A stretch of DNA of 64,000 nucleotides from Muricoccus harenae (GTDB taxonomy: Bacteria > Pseudomonadota > Alphaproteobacteria > Acetobacterales > Acetobacteraceae). The stretch lies in contig NZ_WWDL01000016.1 in NCBI RefSeq assembly GCF_009848505.1, forward strand, positions 1 to 64,000, in the 5' to 3' direction. Shown piece after piece: positions 5,763 to 33,570 of the stretch. Position 1 is the first letter of the stretch, and each line of letters starts with the position of its first letter. A model generated the notes under the pieces. It was not told the DNA's origin. It ran no database searches and saw nothing but the letters and a program-made list of their open reading frames with translations. A program made the position numbers and the translations under genes.

Positions 5763-7628
5763 ATGGATCTTCCCATTTGCCGGAAGGTCAGGTCCCCAGG
5801 ACGTGTCCTCGTGAGTGCTTCCCGTGGGAATCGCCCCGCCGTCGAACCAGGGCAGTCCGGCCTGCGCAGGCTGCTCCGGCATCACCTGGCGCGGGCAGGC
5901 CGCTCCCTGCGGGGGCTCACGAGCGACGAGCCCTCCATCCGCACCAGGCTGGTCGTGCTGGTGCTTTCGGTGGTCAGCCCAGCGGTCCTGGTCCTGGCCC
6001 TCACCACGCTCCAGGCATGGCACAGCGGGCGCGGTGCCACGGAGCGCGCCCTGCTCGCTCGCGCCCAGGCGGTGGCGGCCGCAGTCGCGAGGGAGATCGA
6101 CCTCGCGCGCGTCACGCTGCAGGTGCTCGCGACCTCACCCTTCCTTGCCAGCGGCGATTTCGGGGGCTTCCACCGCCAGATCGCCACCCTTCCCCCTCCG
6201 GCGAGCGCCCGCATCCTGCTGACGGATGCCAGTGGACAGACCCTGGTCAACTCCCGCCTGCCCTATGGCACGGTACTGCCGCCCCGGGCCAATTTCGAAA
6301 GGGTCGCCCGGGTCTTCCAGACCGGCGAGGCGCAGGTATCGGACTTGTACACGGGGCGCGCCACGCGCGAACCGCTCGTGGCGATCGACGTGCCTGCCCG
6401 GGACGCGGCGGGGCGGATCACCCATGCCCTGTCGATGATCCTCGGGGCGCAGGTGGTCAGCGGGGTGCTTCAAAAGCAGAACCTTCCATCCAGCTGGACC
6501 GCAACGGTGCTGGACCGTCAGGGCGTGCTGGTCGGCTGGTCGCGCGCCGCCGAGCGCTTCGTCGGCCGGGAGGCCACGCCCGCATCGCTGGCGGCGATCG
6601 CCGCCGGCACGAATCCGTTCTCCAGTGTCACGCAGGAAGGAGCGGATGTTCGCGGCGCCGATGCCGCCATCTTCGAAACCGGCTGGACGGCGGTCGTCGT
6701 CGTGACCCAAGCCGAGCTGGATGCGCCATTGCGCACCTCGGTGCTGATGGTCGCGCTCGGAAGCAGCCTCCTGCTCCTGCTCGGCCTGATCTCGGCGACA
6801 TGGCATGCTAACCGCATCGGCCACTCGGTCCTTGCTCTGGCCGAGGGTGCCGCCGCGCTCGGACACAGCGCCATGCCGCGGCCCGCGCCGCGGGGCGTGC
6901 GGGAGGCGACCCGCGCGAGCGTCGCCCTGCGCCGCGCCGCCCGGAGCCTTGCGCGGCGTGGGCACGAACGCGACATCGCCGAGCGCCGGCGCAGCCTGGT
7001 GGTGGCCGAGCTGAACCACCGTGTGAAGAACATGCTGGCGACGGTGCAGGCCATCGCCGCCCAAACGCTGCGTGCGACGGGTGGCGACCCCGCCCGCTTC
7101 ATCGAGGCGCTCACCGCGAGGCTCAAGGCCCTGGCCAGGGCGCATGACCTGCTGACGAGCAATGCCTGGGAGGACATGGAGCTCAGCACGGTGGTGAAGG
7201 CCGCGCTTGCGCCCTGGCTTGCCCCCACGCAGGACGGGAAGCCGCCCGCCGTCTCGGTCCGCTGCACCTGCGGATTCGCGCTGAACCTCCGGCCGCTCCA
7301 GGCGCAGGCCCTCGTCCTGGCCTTGCACGAGCTCGCCACGAATGCGGCCAAGTACGGCGCGCTCTCACGGCCCGGCGGTCAGGTGGAGGTCTGGTGCGGC
7401 CCGGGGGAGGACGGAATGGCCGGTCTCCGCTGGATTGAGTCCGGCGGGCCGCGGATCGAGGCGTCGCCGGAACGGCGCGGCTTCGGAACGCGGCTGCTGG
7501 AACGGGGGCTGGCGCGCGACCTGGGGAGTGGCGCCAGCGTCGAACTGCGCTTCGAGCCCGGGGGGCTGCACGCCTTCGTGCGCTTCCCTCCGGGAGCCGC
7601 CGCGCGCAGGACGCTCGAGCAGGTCTGA
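5763..7628 (+). CDS. Membrane sensor histidine kinase of the HWE/HisKA_2 type
   Basis: This is a predicted two-component sensor of 621 residues. A first membrane helix lies near residues 61-85. An extracytoplasmic region of about 240 residues resembles Cache-type sensors, and a second helix lies near 326-350. The dimerisation/phosphoacceptor box ELNHRVKNMLATVQAIA has His419 as the likely phosphorylated residue. This box and the ATP-binding domain (ELATNAAKYGALS, GFGTRLL) are typical of HWE kinases. No response regulator adjoins it, so it appears orphan. The ATG start lacks a strong ribosome site, and an in-frame GTG at codon 17 is possible. The ligand is unknown. Confidence 0.88.
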   Translation: MDLPICRKVRSPGRVLVSASRGNRPAVEPGQSGLRRLLRHHLARAGRSLRGLTSDEPSIRTRLVVLVLSVVSPAVLVLALTTLQAWHSGRGATERALLARAQAVAAAVAREIDLARVTLQVLATSPFLASGDFGGFHRQIATLPPPASARILLTDASGQTLVNSRLPYGTVLPPRANFERVARVFQTGEAQVSDLYTGRATREPLVAIDVPARDAAGRITHALSMILGAQVVSGVLQKQNLPSSWTATVLDRQGVLVGWSRAAERFVGREATPASLAAIAAGTNPFSSVTQEGADVRGADAAIFETGWTAVVVVTQAELDAPLRTSVLMVALGSSLLLLLGLISATWHANRIGHSVLALAEGAAALGHSAMPRPAPRGVREATRASVALRRAARSLARRGHERDIAERRRSLVVAELNHRVKNMLATVQAIAAQTLRATGGDPARFIEALTARLKALARAHDLLTSNAWEDMELSTVVKAALAPWLAPTQDGKPPAVSVRCTCGFALNLRPLQAQALVLALHELATNAAKYGALSRPGGQVEVWCGPGEDGMAGLRWIESGGPRIEASPERRGFGTRLLERGLARDLGSGASVELRFEPGGLHAFVRFPPGAAARRTLEQV

Positions 7629-27845: not shown

Positions 27846-28976
27846 ATGCGTGCCGATGCCGAGAGCCTGAAGGCCCAGATCGCCGACAGCGTCGCCCTGT
27901 TGCGCCGCCACCTGAATTGGGATGCCGCCGTGGTGCGGCTCCATGAGCTGAACGCCCGCGCCGAGGACCCGTCCCTCTGGAACGACGCGGCGGCCGCGCA
28001 GAAGATGATGCGCGAACGCACCCGTCTGGCTGACCAGATCGAGGGCGTCCGGCGCATGGAGCAGGACGTGCAGGACGCGCTGGAGTTGGTGGAGCTGGCC
28101 GAGGCGGAGGGCGATGCAGCGACCGCCGATGCCGCCGTCGCCGATCTCCATCGCTTGGCCGCCGAGGCGAAGCGCCGCGAGATCGAGAGCCTGCTGTCCG
28201 GCGAGGCCGACAGCAATGACGCCTATGTCGAGGTGAATGCCGGCGCCGGTGGCACGGATGCCCAGGACTGGGCGGAGATGATGCTCCGCATGTACACGCG
28301 CTGGGCCGAGGCGCATGGCTACAAGGTCACGCTCACCGAGCAGAGCGACGGCGACGAGGCAGGCATCAAGTCCGCCACCATCCAGGTTTCCGGCCCCAGC
28401 GCCTATGGCTGGCTGAAGACCGAGATGGGCGTGCACCGGCTGGTCCGCATCTCGCCCTTCGGCGGCAATGACAAGCGGCAGACGAGCTTCGCCTCCGTCT
28501 ATGTTTATCCGGTGATCGACGACAAGATTGAGGTGGAGATCAACCCGGCCGACCTGCGCACCGACACCTTCCGCGCCTCCGGCGCCGGTGGGCAGCACGT
28601 GAACAAGACCGAATCCGGCGTGCGCTTCACCCATATCCCGACGGGCATCGTTGCCGCCTCCACCCAGGACCGCAGCCAGCACAAGAACCGCGTCATCGCG
28701 ATGAACATGCTGCGCGCCCGCTTGTACGAGCTGGAGCTGCAGAAGCGCGAGGCGCTCAGCGCCGCCACCGAGGCCGGCAAGACCGACATCGGCTGGGGTC
28801 ACCAGATCCGGTCCTATGTGCTGCAACCCTACCAGATGGTGAAGGATCTCCGCACCGGGGTGGAGAAGGGCAATCCGGCCGCCGTGCTGGATGGCGACCT
28901 GGACGACTTCATGGCCGCCGCCCTCGCCAGCCGCGTCGGCGCAACGCGCTCCGAGGCCAGCGCGAACGCCCGTTGA
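27846..28976 (+). CDS. prfB: Peptide chain release factor 2
   Basis: RF2 ends translation at UGA and UAA. The 376-residue protein has the stop-recognition tripeptide SPF at 203-205 and the catalytic GGQ at 248-250 ([16 protein letters not shown]). It starts directly at ATG ([15 protein letters not shown]) and runs uninterrupted. The programmed +1 frameshift with in-frame UGA near codon 25, seen in many bacterial prfB genes, is therefore absent. It overlaps the next gene by one base (TGATG). Confidence 0.96.
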
Positions 28977-29569
28977 TGGGCGACCTGATCCCCGCGGCCC
29001 CCCGCCCGCAGGACCTGCACGACCCCGGCGGCAAGGTGCGGCTGAAGGTCGGCGGCGAGGTGGTCAGCCGCGCGGAGTTCTCGGCGGATGGCCGCTACCG
29101 CACCGTGCTGGAGCGCCGCTGGGACGGACTTCCCTTCGGCAGCCCGGGCGTCTGCGCCTGGATCATGATGAATCCCAGCACGGCCGATGAGACGGTGGAT
29201 GACCCCACCGTCCGCCGAGCCCGAGACTTCACCCGCCGCTGGGGCTTCGGCGCCATGGTAGTGCTGAACGCCTTCGCCCTGCGCGCGACCAAGCCCACCA
29301 TGCTGCTGGAATGCGAGGACCCGGTGGGACCGGGCAATGACGCCGCCATCGCCGACTGGGCGGCGCGGGCGGATCGCGTGGTTGTCGCCTGGGGCCTGCC
29401 GCCGAAGAAGCTGCGCGGCCGTGCGTCGGAATTGGCCGCGATCCTGGCCCGCGCGGGCGCGAAGCCCCTGGCGCTGAAGGTCACGGCGGATGGCCAGCCC
29501 GGCCATCCGCTCTATATCGCGGGCGATACCGAGCCGAAGCCCTGGGAGGCTCCGGCCGGCGCCCGCTAG
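28976..29569 (+). CDS. DUF1643 domain protein
   Basis: This 197-residue protein shows the DUF1643 pattern: AWIMMNPSTADETVDDPTV, then RRARDFTRRWGFGAMVV and LNAFALRATKP, with a C-terminal HPLYI. No reaction is established for the family, though the MNPSxAD and WG motifs are strongly conserved. Its ATG overlaps the prfB stop as TGATG, so it is probably translated by re-initiation after release factor 2. A TTG one codon upstream is a less likely start. It converges on a binding-protein gene only three bases away. Confidence 0.88.
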   Translation: MGDLIPAAPRPQDLHDPGGKVRLKVGGEVVSRAEFSADGRYRTVLERRWDGLPFGSPGVCAWIMMNPSTADETVDDPTVRRARDFTRRWGFGAMVVLNAFALRATKPTMLLECEDPVGPGNDAAIADWAARADRVVVAWGLPPKKLRGRASELAAILARAGAKPLALKVTADGQPGHPLYIAGDTEPKPWEAPAGAR

Positions 29570-29572
29570 GGG

Positions 29573-31189
29573 TCAGGCCCGCCGAACGTTCCAGAACAGC
29601 GTCGGCCCGCCCTTGAGCACGCCGGTGATGCTGCGACGATAGGCCTGCTGCGGGCGCTGCAGGCCGAGCGGGATGAAGGGCGCCTCCTCCCACACCGTGC
29701 GCTGCAGCTCCTCCGCGATTCGCTTCTCGGTCTCGATATCCTTCGCGTCGAACCACTCGTCGCGCAGGGCCTCGCGCCGGGGGCTGGTGGGCCAGCCGGA
29801 CCAAGCATTGGCGCCGTTGCCGCGAAGCGGCTGGTGGCTGCCGGGAACGGAGGTGTCCAGCCCCTCCCAGGTGGTGCAGAAGGCGCTGAAGCCGCCCTGC
29901 TCCACCGGGCCGCGATTGGTGCGGCGCTGGATCTGCGTGCCCCAGTCCATCGAGATGAGATCGACGTTGAAGCCGACCCGGCGCATCAGGTCCGCGGCGA
30001 CCTCCGTCATGCCCTGCAGGTTCGGAAGATCGGTAGCCGAGAGCAGCACCACCCGCTCGTTCTTGTAGCCGGCCTCCCGGAGCAGGCGCTTCGCCTTCTC
30101 GACATCGCGCGGCCCGGTCAGGATCTCCAGCCCCGCGTCATTCGCCAGCGGCGTGCCCGGGGTGAAGGCGCCCGCAGGGATGCGGTAGAGTTCGGGATCG
30201 GTGCCCACCGCCGCCTGCACGAAGGCTTCCTGGTCCACTGCCGGGAAAAGGGCCCGGCGGATGGCGGGATTGTCGAAGGGCGCGTGCAGATGGTTGAAGC
30301 GCAGCACGCCGAAGCTGCCGGCGGTGTTGATCGCCTCCACCACGATCTGCCGGTTGCGCCGCAGGATGGGCAGCAGGTCCGGCAGCGGCGTCTCCCACCA
30401 GTCGGCCTCGTTGTTCTGCAGGGCCGCCGCCGCCGTGGCGGCATCCGGCATGACGCGCCATTCGACCCGGTCGAAATGCACCTGCTTGCCGCCGGCGAGC
30501 AGGTCCGGGGCCTCCTGCCGTGGCTGGTAGGCGGCATTGCGCTCGAAGACGGCCAGGCTGCCGGCCACCCACTCGTCCCGGAGGAAGCGGAAGGGGCCGC
30601 TGCCCGTGAAATCGGTGACCTGGGTGAAGGGGTCCGTCTGCGCCACGCGCTCCGGCATAATCGCGCAGATATTGGCGCCCGCCTTGCCCAACGCCCAGGT
30701 CAGGCCGTTCCAGGGCCGCTTGAGGCGGATGCTGAAACGTTCATCCGAGGCGGCAGTCATCTCCTCCAGCAGGGCGTCGAGGCGCTGCCCGAGGACGTCG
30801 CGCTTCGACCAGCGGCGGATGGAGGCGATGCAGTCGCGGGCGCGAACCGGCTCGCCATCGTGGAAGCGCAGGCCCGGGCGCAGGGTGATCGTATGGGTCA
30901 GCCCGTCGGCGGACACCTCATGCGCCCCGGCCATCTGCGGCTTGGTCTGGAAGTCGCTGCTCATGCCGAACAGCGTGTCGTAGATCATCAGCCCCGCATT
31001 CCGGGACAGCACCGAGGTGCCCCAGATCGGGTCCATGCTTGCGAGGTTGCCCTGCGGCACGAAGCGCAGGGTGCGTGCCGCCGCGCCTTGCGCGAGGGCC
31101 GGCGCAGGCATCCGGCCCAGGCCGGCCATCATCGCGGTGGCGGTGGCCGTCCTCAGTAGCGTTCTGCGATCGGTCAAGGTCATCTCCAT
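29573..31189 (-). CDS. ABC transporter family-5 (peptide/nickel type) substrate-binding protein
   Basis: This is an extracytoplasmic binding protein of 538 residues. A probable Tat signal (TDRRTLLRTATATAMMAG) precedes the family-5 pattern LRFVPQGNLASMDPIW, YDTLFGM, TLRPGLRFHDGEPV and PAIRRALFPAVDQEAF. Such proteins bind peptides, opines or other solutes. No permease or ATPase genes adjoin it. Several in-frame ATGs lie within 21 codons and none has a strong ribosome site, so the start is approximate. It is not part of the neighbouring prfB operon (opposite strand). Confidence 0.9.
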   Translation of the reverse strand: MEMTLTDRRTLLRTATATAMMAGLGRMPAPALAQGAAARTLRFVPQGNLASMDPIWGTSVLSRNAGLMIYDTLFGMSSDFQTKPQMAGAHEVSADGLTHTITLRPGLRFHDGEPVRARDCIASIRRWSKRDVLGQRLDALLEEMTAASDERFSIRLKRPWNGLTWALGKAGANICAIMPERVAQTDPFTQVTDFTGSGPFRFLRDEWVAGSLAVFERNAAYQPRQEAPDLLAGGKQVHFDRVEWRVMPDAATAAAALQNNEADWWETPLPDLLPILRRNRQIVVEAINTAGSFGVLRFNHLHAPFDNPAIRRALFPAVDQEAFVQAAVGTDPELYRIPAGAFTPGTPLANDAGLEILTGPRDVEKAKRLLREAGYKNERVVLLSATDLPNLQGMTEVAADLMRRVGFNVDLISMDWGTQIQRRTNRGPVEQGGFSAFCTTWEGLDTSVPGSHQPLRGNGANAWSGWPTSPRREALRDEWFDAKDIETEKRIAEELQRTVWEEAPFIPLGLQRPQQAYRRSITGVLKGGPTLFWNVRRA

Positions 31190-31316
31190 TCCGGCGCCCA
31201 TCATGCGCTGGTGTTGCCAGGCGCAGATTGCATCCTGCAGAACGGCGCGTCACCCGGTCAGGCGCGGGAGACGAGATCTTCATGCCCTGCTGTTGAGGCA
31301 ATTCTCGGCGGGGGTG

Positions 31317-32378
31317 TCAGTCCTGCCGACGGTTGGTGAAGCGGGCATTCCCCAGTCCGGTCCCGATGGTCAGCACGCCCCAGCGCTCCACGTCCTGCAT
31401 GTTGGGGATCTCGCTCAGCCCCTGCAGCACGGCGTCGTTGTGCATCAGCACGGTGGTGGGATGGCCGCCGATCTCGGGGATGGCCTCGGCGATGGCGCGG
31501 GGTAGGTTGAAGCGGCTGCTCTCCCAGTTTCCTGGCAGGTTCTGGCCGCCGCGGTCGATCGAGCCGTCAGCCTCGATGATTCCGGGACAGCCGATGCCGA
31601 TGAAGGGCGCCAGGGCCCGCTTCTTCGATTCCGCCAGGGCGACCATGCCGCGCAGCATGGTGGCGATCCGCTCTACAGCCTCCTCGCGGCTGGGCTCGTC
31701 GTCATGGTGGCGCCAGACCTCGAGCCCGACCACCTTCGCCTCCGACAGGTCGCGCGCCTTCTTCAGGTTCAGCTCCACCAGCCCGGCACGGATGTTGGTG
31801 CCGCCAATGTCCACGGCCAGCAGGCTGTCATGGCCCGAGAAGATCCAGCTCGGCGCCAGATGGGCGGCGCCGATCAGCGCGGCCTCATCCGGCTCATGGG
31901 TGATGGGAACCAGTTCCACCCCCTGGCCATCCGCCTTCAGCAGCAGGGAGGCGCGGCCGATCGCCAGATGCCCGATCCGGCTTCCGCTCATCCCGCCACC
32001 GACGACGATGCGCTGCGTGTCCTTCCAGCCCTTCAGCTTCAGGAAGCGGCGGGTGACCCGCGCCAGCTCCTGGGCGAATTCCTCCACCACGCCATGGACG
32101 AGGGCGGCGACCTCCGGATTTTCGTGTTGCATCAGCTTCTCGAGCCGGCGCTTGGAGACATCCTCGCTCGGGCAGTCGCCCAATGGGTCCTCGTCGCCCA
32201 GCTTGCGCAGCCGCTCGCGCCACTCGTCCAGGATCGCACGGAAGGCGCGCTTGCTGGCCCGGTCTCCGATAAAGCCCTCCTTGTCCCGCAACTCGGCATT
32301 ATAGGCATCGAGCACGACGCTGGTGAGCTGCGGCGCGCCGTGGCTGGCGACGGGTGGCGCGGGGGCGTGGTCAGGCAT
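31317..32378 (-). CDS. ROK-like sugar-kinase-fold protein with apparently permuted halves
   Basis: This 353-residue protein has clear ROK/ASKHA motifs in an unusual order. Residues about 30-180 look like the C-terminal half of a ROK or polyphosphate-glucokinase protein. They carry a GDRASKRAF segment, then IVVGGGMSGSR and a DEAALIGAAHLAP end. Then LLAVDIGGTNIRAGLVE, normally at the N terminus, begins with its Asp at residue 190. GIGCPGIIEADG and HNDAVLQG follow, and the chain ends just after TIGTGLGNARF. The CxCGxxGC zinc motif and the ExGH sugar ligand of many ROK kinases are not seen. Substrate and activity are unknown. The ATG used gives the shortest frame covering all motifs. Confidence 0.72.
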   Translation of the reverse strand: MPDHAPAPPVASHGAPQLTSVVLDAYNAELRDKEGFIGDRASKRAFRAILDEWRERLRKLGDEDPLGDCPSEDVSKRRLEKLMQHENPEVAALVHGVVEEFAQELARVTRRFLKLKGWKDTQRIVVGGGMSGSRIGHLAIGRASLLLKADGQGVELVPITHEPDEAALIGAAHLAPSWIFSGHDSLLAVDIGGTNIRAGLVELNLKKARDLSEAKVVGLEVWRHHDDEPSREEAVERIATMLRGMVALAESKKRALAPFIGIGCPGIIEADGSIDRGGQNLPGNWESSRFNLPRAIAEAIPEIGGHPTTVLMHNDAVLQGLSEIPNMQDVERWGVLTIGTGLGNARFTNRRQD

Positions 32379-32445: not shown

Positions 32446-33570
32446 TCAGCGCGGCCGGCGGATACCGAGGCTTGCCGCCGCCAGCAGAGCCGCGGCCCCC
32501 CCATAGATCAGCATTGCCGGGGCGACCGGCAGCAGGACGCCCGCCAGCAGCGGGCCGGCGCCGGCGCCGATATCGCGCCAGGTGGCCTGCCGTGCCAGGG
32601 CGGGCACGCGGGCGGAGCCGGGGTTCTCGGCCGCGACCAAGGGGCCGGGCAGGGGCTGGATCACGGCGCGCAGCAGCACCGTCGCCAGCGCTCCGGCCCA
32701 GAGCAGCACGCCGCCCGCGCCAAGCAGGAGCAGCCCCGCGGCGGTGGCAAGGGACAGCCCGACCAGCGCCCGCCGCGCCCCGACCCGCCCGGCCAGCCAA
32801 CCGCCAGCCGGGGAGAGGAAGATCTCCGCCGCGTAGCGCAGCGCCAGCGCGGCCCCGGCAGCCAGGGTCGCGCCTTCCGGCAGGGCGGCGGCGGCCAGCA
32901 CCGAGAGGCCGATGACGAAGAGCCCATCCATGGTGAGGCCGAAGACGAAGGCCCAGATGTCGAAGCTGCCCGGCAGGGCGAAGCGCGGCCCGCCCTTGGC
33001 ATGGCCCTCGGGCTGATCGGGCAGGCGGGAGGCGAAGAGGATTGCAGGGAGGGAGACGAGGCCGAGCACGACGAAGACGGCGCGCGGCCCTGCCCATTCG
33101 GCCAGCACTGCGCCACCCAGGAGCCCGAACATCGGCCCCGCTGCCACAATGGAGCGCGACCATCCGCTGCGCCGCGCCGCACCCTCCGAAAGCGCCGTGG
33201 GGAGGGCCTGAACCGCGATGTTCATCGCCGCGAAGGCCAAGCCCCAGAGAAGCCGCGCCAGCAGCAGGGCCCAGAGGCCCGACAGCACCGCATAGCCGAA
33301 GGTGGCCAGTGCCGCCGCGGCGGCCGCCAGCATGCAGGCCGTGCGCGGGCCGCGTTCCCCGTAGAGCCGCGCCACCCAGCCATAGCCCGCGATCCGTATC
33401 AGCCGGTTGGCCGCCAGCAGGATGCCCGCCTCGGGCAGGGTCACGCCGAAGGTGCCGGCATAGAGCGGCAGCAGCAGGTAGAGCACCGTGTCGCCCGGCA
33501 GGGTGCAGGCAAGGGTGAAGGCGGAGTTCCGTGTCGCGCGGTCTGCTTCAGCGGCCTCCAGGACGGTCAC
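32446..33570 (-). CDS. Major facilitator superfamily transporter
   Basis: This is a predicted 12-helix inner-membrane carrier of 374 residues with typical MFS patterns. These include GVTLPEAGILLAANRLIRI, the loop motif ARLYGERGPR between helices 2 and 3, and a related loop (GWLAGRVGARRAL) in the second half. It starts with GTG, and GTGA overlaps the stop of the upstream acetyltransferase gene by four bases. The two are therefore translationally coupled. The pairing of an N-acetyltransferase with an efflux-type MFS protein suggests detoxification of an amine compound, which is an inference. Confidence 0.86.
   Translation of the reverse strand: MTVLEAAEADRATRNSAFTLACTLPGDTVLYLLLPLYAGTFGVTLPEAGILLAANRLIRIAGYGWVARLYGERGPRTACMLAAAAAALATFGYAVLSGLWALLLARLLWGLAFAAMNIAVQALPTALSEGAARRSGWSRSIVAAGPMFGLLGGAVLAEWAGPRAVFVVLGLVSLPAILFASRLPDQPEGHAKGGPRFALPGSFDIWAFVFGLTMDGLFVIGLSVLAAAALPEGATLAAGAALALRYAAEIFLSPAGGWLAGRVGARRALVGLSLATAAGLLLLGAGGVLLWAGALATVLLRAVIQPLPGPLVAAENPGSARVPALARQATWRDIGAGAGPLLAGVLLPVAPAMLIYGGAAALLAAASLGIRRPR

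Follow-up and report, generated by a model that had tools for sequence, protein, structure and literature searches.

Evidence for natural circular permutation in a family of ROK-type sugar kinase homologues from Muricoccus harenae and other bacteria

One predicted protein of Muricoccus harenae carries the sequence motifs of a ROK sugar kinase in an unusual order, and we wondered whether it is a natural circular permutation of a ROK-type protein and whether it is likely to act as a kinase. The gene lies on the minus strand of contig NZ_WWDL01000016.1, at positions 31317-32378 (stop codon included) of the 64-kb stretch of DNA that was analysed (the window, to which all coordinates of the gene and its minus-strand features refer). 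It encodes 353 amino acids, two of them cysteines, and has a GC content of 68% (window 70%) and a GC3 of 88%. An in-frame extension up to an ATG at 32504 is possible; the extra part overlaps the upstream MFS transporter ORF, which ends at 32446, and a methionine matching the start at 32378 is present in several close homologues.

Ordinary ROK kinases (PF00480) are ordered from the DxGxT motif through the GTG hairpin to the GGG segment and the end of the chain. An earlier note on this DNA had read a rotated order here, with GGG and DEAALIGAA ahead of DIGGTN and with GTG near the end; it had also found the zinc and ExGH motifs missing, and had inferred a permutation. A motif scan of the full sequence reproduced these positions. 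From the N-terminus onwards, the protein has GDRASK (residues 38-43; 32250-32267), GGGMSG (residues 127-132; 31983-32000), which corresponds to the GGG segment in the C-terminal half of ROK proteins, DEAALIGAA (residues 164-172; 31863-31889), which stands at the terminus of ordinary ROK chains, the phosphate-1 loop DIGGTN (residues 190-195; 31794-31811), QNLPGNW (residues 279-285; 31524-31544), HND (residues 313-315; 31434-31442), and the phosphate-2 hairpin TIGTGLGNARF (residues 337-347; 31338-31370), which ends six residues short of the C-terminus. ExGH and the zinc-motif string CxCG were both absent from the 353 residues. Six related copies from Bradyrhizobium and some metagenome-assembled genomes (MAGs; L019, L035, L055, L057, L068 and L081) have variable lysine-rich C-terminal tails past the last strand, which the window copy lacks.

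The Pfam ROK profile matched residues 187-349 only, through profile positions 2-141 of 294 (43.8 bits, cut-off 22.9), and at E 0.001 it matched 24 of 27 family members and missed three. In the other half of the protein, residues 97-175 matched positions 213-286 of 288 of the NCBIfam profile for the N-acetylmannosamine kinase NanK (NF047821), with 26 bits against a cut-off of 450. An alignment of the 27 family members was compared by hhalign with one of 18 ordinary-order ROK proteins (17 from Pseudomonadota and E. coli nanK). In native order, residues 183-351 aligned to template positions 3-153 (E 4e-15) and residues 17-176 to template positions 163-303 (E 1.4e-5). After rotation at residue 181, this swapped pair became a single collinear match of 288 columns that covered template positions 3-303 of 306 (E 3.2e-20). 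Among 23 cut points, the highest scores were obtained at 180 (144.1) and 185 (143.9), as compared to 110.1 for the native order. The N-terminal half by itself scored 46.2 against the ordinary proteins, while 200 column shuffles gave a mean of 14.0 and a maximum of 27.2 and the reversed alignment gave 15.3, so that its likeness to ordinary ROK proteins is more than chance. Both halves are thus homologous to the opposite halves of the ROK reference, the pattern by which a natural permutation is recognised.

A HMMER profile made from the same 18 ordinary proteins was used to score all 353 rotations of the protein. The best single stretch rose from 45.5 bits in native order (profile positions 3-150) to 60.5 bits for cuts at 179-183 (positions 3-301 of 304), and 500 rotated versions in which the first 180 residues had been shuffled reached 51.2 bits at most. 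Since the total across all native stretches was 58.6 bits, the benefit of rotation lies in collinearity more than in score. With both programs the score peaked at cuts in the range 179-185, whereas the Pfam ROK model gave no such gain when single sequences were rotated (43.9 versus 43.8 bits, with two stretches remaining). Against PDB sequences, the best E-value was 0.0024 for the rotated profile (8 rows) and 0.0036 for the native profile (27 rows), and the rotated profile reached the first halves of ROK chains only, not their second halves.

From these matches, residues 1-174 (31857-32378) can be assigned as the counterpart of the C-terminal part of ordinary ROK proteins (about residue 143 to the end) and residues 185-353 (31320-31826) as that of the N-terminal part (1 to about 145). 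The gap between the two matched segments, residues 175-184 (31827-31856, with approximate bounds), is a putative linker between the ancestral C- and N-termini. The old termini would have been joined by this linker of about 10 residues, and the chain would have been reopened in the loop following the GTG beta-hairpin, beyond which the new termini lie. The earlier note had proposed the same cut and junction, with a linker of about 12 residues.

An AlphaFold2 model of the protein, with the 27-member alignment as input, reached a pLDDT of 88.7 and a pTM of 0.88; residues 1-184 modelled alone gave modest confidence (pLDDT 68.5). Foldseek returned partial or weak rows for both models, and no row at E 0.001 or better for the N-terminal half. 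Match ranges were taken from VIA-align, which re-examines Foldseek's own candidates, and families absent from its lists were not counted as evidence. The halves were superposed separately on ROK chains, not as a whole permuted chain. Residues 182-350 of the whole model fit the first ~145 residues of the N-acetylmannosamine kinases 5nck (1-144; Z 9.2, rmsd 2.3, 141 aligned) and 6q26 (1-145; Z 9.6, rmsd 2.6, 143 aligned) and of the putative sugar kinase 3r8e (0-145; Z 9.1, rmsd 2.5, 143 aligned). The same residues fit positions 405-554 of the human N-acetylmannosamine kinase domain 2yhw (Z 12.6, rmsd 2.0, 147 aligned), and the C-terminal part also matched residues 11-161 of the polyphosphate/ATP-glucomannokinase 1woq (Z 10.2, rmsd 2.2, 145 aligned).

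The N-terminal half, modelled alone, fit the complementary ranges of the same three chains, namely 142-272 of 5nck (Z 8.2, rmsd 3.4, 122 aligned), 143-276 of 6q26 (Z 8.3, rmsd 3.3, 123 aligned) and 144-289 of 3r8e (Z 8.6, rmsd 3.3, 135 aligned). The first 17 rows of its VIA-align list were ROK kinases or regulators, some by title and others, among them 3r8e, 4ija, 2qm1 and Mlc entries, that we took to be ROK proteins; kinases of other ASKHA types, pantothenate kinases and hexokinases among them, appeared between these from rank 18 onwards (Z 6.6). Because only 4 of 1000 chains reached a Z of at least 8 and Foldseek contributed no row at E 0.001 or better, this structural match would be weak on its own, and it is its positional agreement with the sequence results that counts. 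The models predict that residues 1-175 and 185-353 assemble as one kinase-like fold. Half by half, the protein shares with ROK kinases the fold, the phosphate-1 loop, the catalytic ND, the GTG hairpin and the GGG segment. The permutation inferred earlier was thus borne out by the profile rotations and by the complementary structural ranges, and we consider it almost certain that the protein is a natural circular permutation of a ROK-type protein.

We next turn to how widely this order is shared. A scan of genomes from 84,980 species gave 565 candidates and 551 related stretches, and the best 80 of the 551 were retained. In 76 of these 80 loci the strict motif order was found within one ORF; the remaining four (L002, L005, L011 and L018) had tblastn matches spanning at least residues 5-349, and L002 and L018 aligned in the same permuted order. 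All 26 aligned homologues were permuted as well. The permuted order is a family trait, and a one-off misassembly, which the earlier note had asked homologues to exclude, is excluded by their shared order. A broken-frame N-terminal fragment of 221 bases in one genome (G298, L198 at about 6702-6909) is 90% identical to the start of a full copy 3.6 kb off, and for these two reasons we read it as a partial duplicate and not as a trace of the permutation event.

Within the taxonomic family of the window, 10 of 100 genomes had a match, the source genome included. In a sample of the phylum there were matches in 43 of 299 genomes, full-length in 16 (again including the source genome); those in the other 27 were weak (E 2.7e-6 to 9.7e-4) and lay inside profile positions 175-340, and the proteins of four of these 27 genomes (L109-L112) were ordinary-order ROK proteins. 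When the rotated profile was run against the same 299 genomes (E 1e-4), the same 16 showed the permuted gene in at least two swapped pieces, four others had weak first-half matches, and one fragment was seen; with at most seven candidates scored per genome, this search found no full-length relative in ordinary order. Matching plasmid records numbered 205, of which 111 were Rhizobium and 79 Sinorhizobium by first word. Among the plasmid matches listed, the gene was annotated as 'ROK family protein' or lacked an annotation; the labels hypothetical protein and glucokinase were rare. The named records among the best 80 loci and the 205 plasmids were all from Pseudomonadota, except for one MAG labelled Labilithrix.

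In the window, the gene lies between the MFS transporter ORF, upstream on the same strand, and a gene for an SBP_bac_5 solute-binding protein (29573-31204) downstream. Elsewhere in the window (27846-29569), a DUF1643 gene (28973-29569) shares a few bases with the end of a release-factor gene with PCRF and RF-1 domains (27846-28976). Among 29 loci, no flanking ORF had a match at E 1e-15 in more than five of the others, and those shared neighbours that were examined fell within close groups, one example being genes that flank Bradyrhizobium copies and that we recognised as those for ObgE and the ribosomal proteins L21 and L27. In all seven annotated Rhizobium plasmid records, the permuted gene and the trehalose-phosphatase gene otsB stand head-to-head. 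The same arrangement was seen in the one annotated Shinella record, of which the other flanks differ, and by tblastn in one further genome (G351, L168). In Rhizobium and Shinella (L149, L152, L153, L155, L156, L200, L201 and L202), the two genes are 108-125 bases apart. In Sinorhizobium meliloti (L151 6624-9026), the head-to-head neighbour of the permuted gene is annotated as 'osmoprotectant NAGGN system M42 family peptidase'. These arrangements suggest that in some lineages the gene may be connected with osmoprotectants; neither neighbour was found in the Phyllobacterium and Bradyrhizobium records, and the Methylobacterium and S. medicae records consist of stretches without annotation.

In Rhizobium and Shinella the gene may, as a weak inference from its neighbour, provide glucose 6-phosphate close to the trehalose pathway. 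Such a role would make the protein a permuted glucokinase, dependent on ATP or polyphosphate, that feeds trehalose synthesis, a reading towards which the head-to-head otsB genes point, as does an ordinary-order polyphosphate-glucokinase-like ROK gene that in genome G523 (L131/L174 3959-8678) lies beside same-strand homologues of otsB and otsA. The seven Rhizobium records all belong to one replicon type (rep_cluster_841), however, and may count as one locus. Moreover, at E 1e-6 otsB was found in none of the 80 best loci (flanks of up to 5 kb) and in one (L168) of 17 extended loci with the permuted gene; it is not adjacent to the gene in the plasmid records of S. meliloti, Phyllobacterium and Bradyrhizobium, and beside the window copy, with its transporter and solute-binding neighbours, it is absent. 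The NCBIfam polyphosphate glucokinase profile (NF045942) scored 21.3 bits, far under its equivalog cut-off of 250. Taken together, we consider this glucokinase role rather unlikely.

The relation to polyphosphate glucokinases is also limited at the level of the chain. Alphaproteobacterial proteins that resemble them (L114, L115, L130 and L131) lack the zinc motif, as does the permuted family, and according to the accessible part of PMC6406325 the same is true of methanotroph polyphosphate glucokinases annotated as ROK. The earlier note had likened GDRASK to these enzymes; this holds locally, in that L131 has GDRTRDKIG, but the N-terminal half also contains a stretch, SKRRLEKLMQHENPEVAA, that aligns with ordinary ROK kinases and is without a counterpart in the polyphosphate-glucokinase-like proteins. 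The permuted family differs from these proteins in its rotated order and in the ROK-type stretch ahead of the GGG segment, and the tree described below does not group it with them with support. Two genomes (G237 and G189) contain both the permuted gene and an ordinary polyphosphate-glucokinase-like gene.

Conservation was assessed in an alignment of 58 sequences, some of which represent identical or near-identical genes drawn from two collections. Asp190, Gly192, Gly193, Asn314, Asp315, Thr340 and the GTG were invariant in all 58, residue 194 was Thr in 42 and Ser in 16, and near the new N-terminus His13, Phe36, Gly38 and Asp39 (the latter two within GDRASK) were invariant too. In mutation work on NagK, the catalytic base is identified as D105 and the metal ligand as D6, while T10 and T132 are said to contact phosphates (accessible part of PMC10031466). 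By motif and alignment, we take Asp315, Asp190, Thr194 and Thr340 to be the counterparts of these residues. Asp190 would hold the metal, Thr194 and Thr340 would contact phosphates, and Asp315 would deprotonate the acceptor hydroxyl. Since the metal and catalytic aspartates and the GTG are invariant, the protein is probably an active sugar kinase.

The sugar pocket is a different matter. The motif GHx9-11CxCGx2G(C/H)xE is described as typical of every ROK member in the part of PMC2742894 that was accessible, where N516, D517, E566, H569 and E588 are given as the sugar contacts of human GNE. Only N516 and D517 of these are retained in the permuted protein, as Asn314 and Asp315; CxCG occurred in none of the 58 sequences, and the string E.GH somewhere in two. 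With the zinc motif lost and ExGH not retained, the pocket cannot be the same as in ordinary ROK kinases. His13, Phe36, Gly38 and Asp39 may help to rebuild it, and we speculate that His13 and Asp39 might stand in for the sugar-binding residues that were lost.

ROK proteins include regulators, and a permuted ROK-fold protein that has no kinase activity and instead senses or binds sugar would also be compatible with the loss of the two motifs, which in human GNE bear the sugar-binding residues E566, H569 and E588 (PMC2742894, same part). We consider this unlikely, however, given that Asp190, Asn314, Asp315 and the GTG have been kept throughout the alignment and that no DNA-binding family was found by Pfam at E 0.001 in any of the 27 members.

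A tree was built from 25 permuted proteins, rotated into ordinary order, and 37 ordinary ones (quick search, no bootstrap, unrooted). All 25 permuted proteins grouped together with an SH-aLRT of 100, and the branch of their clade was 3.46 changes per column long; among the 37 ordinary proteins this clade had no supported position, and the run gave long-branch warnings. Because a single long branch joins the family to ordinary ROK proteins, the unrooted tree leaves the direction of change unfixed, and the permuted order could be ancestral and the ordinary order derived. This is very unlikely, as the ordinary order is found across the ROK chains of many organisms in the PDB, whereas the named permuted records among the 80 loci and the 205 plasmids stay within Pseudomonadota but for the Labilithrix-labelled MAG.

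Some structural rows were obtained in native order, and these could be read as evidence for another ASKHA-type kinase, for instance one like pantothenate kinase, that is not a permuted ROK protein at all. VIA-align matched residues 21-330 to the pantothenate kinase 3djc (Z 9.1, rmsd 3.3, 182 aligned), residues 19-353 to the Hsp70 domain 5obw (Z 9.1, rmsd 5.1, 224 aligned), and residues 31-353 to positions 287-692 of hexokinase I (1bg3; Z 9.3, rmsd 33.9, 257 aligned); the Foldseek list of the whole model was topped by hexokinase 2 with 435 columns and an rmsd of 31.1. We take both hexokinases to be tandem duplicates whose two copies meet near residue 475, so that a permuted chain should span the end of the first copy and the start of the second, which would account for the huge rmsd. 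The ASKHA-type fold consists of two duplicated, mutually similar domains, and it is to this internal likeness that we would tentatively attribute the rows for 3djc and 5obw. That the protein is such a native-order kinase is highly improbable: identity to 3djc is 10%, ROK rows top both VIA-align lists, and the sequence matches are to ROK proteins in swapped order. An artefact, in which adjacent gene fragments or a misassembly placed a ROK C-terminal half ahead of an N-terminal one, has nothing but the odd order itself in its favour and is refuted, to practical certainty, by full-length homologues of 56-90% identity from many genera and separate assemblies, by plasmid copies down to 47% identity across 99% of the query, and by invariant residues on either side of the junction.

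Altogether, the best explanation of these results is, with high probability, that the protein is a ROK sugar kinase homologue which has undergone natural circular permutation and which most likely functions as an active metal-dependent sugar kinase. The family has the phosphate-1 motif (with Ser for Thr in some members) and the predicted catalytic Asp of ROK kinases, and the window protein passes the Pfam cut-off. It departs from them in two defining features, motif order and zinc motif, for which reason we place it beside ROK as a permuted variant. Sugar kinases that differ in segment order are known from another fold: the accessible part of PMC2213659 describes a non-sequential alignment of ADP-dependent glucokinase with 2-dehydro-3-deoxygluconokinase, a ribokinase-like pair unrelated to ROK. 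Among the matches listed in the open-access literature there was no permuted ROK protein; the main text of a 2025 review (PMC12696579) has no word starting with 'permut', and the accessible parts of PMC6200981 and PMC9611204 contain nothing attributable to the permuted gene. This agrees with the earlier statement that no permuted ROK family has been described, without proving it.

A joint reading of all observations would be that of a widespread permuted family of single origin, to our knowledge the first within ROK, in which the move of the chain ends to a place near the nucleotide-binding hairpin accompanied a rebuilt sugar site and a new substrate or donor tied to osmoprotectant metabolism; as a whole we offer this tentatively and think it rather doubtful. 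The gene itself is common among bacteria and has gone unremarked. Proteins that bear no label but 'ROK family protein' can thus differ in topology, a difference concealed by half-length Pfam matches. It represents a natural protein that has been re-cut elsewhere, with apparently the same fold and with its catalytic residues kept. A permutation fixed across many genomes, here 551 related stretches, is a direct test of how far a two-lobed sugar-kinase fold tolerates a change in chain order, of whether the position of the chain ends matters for folding and domain closure, and of the way in which a sugar site that has lost the zinc motif is rebuilt to recognise its ligand.
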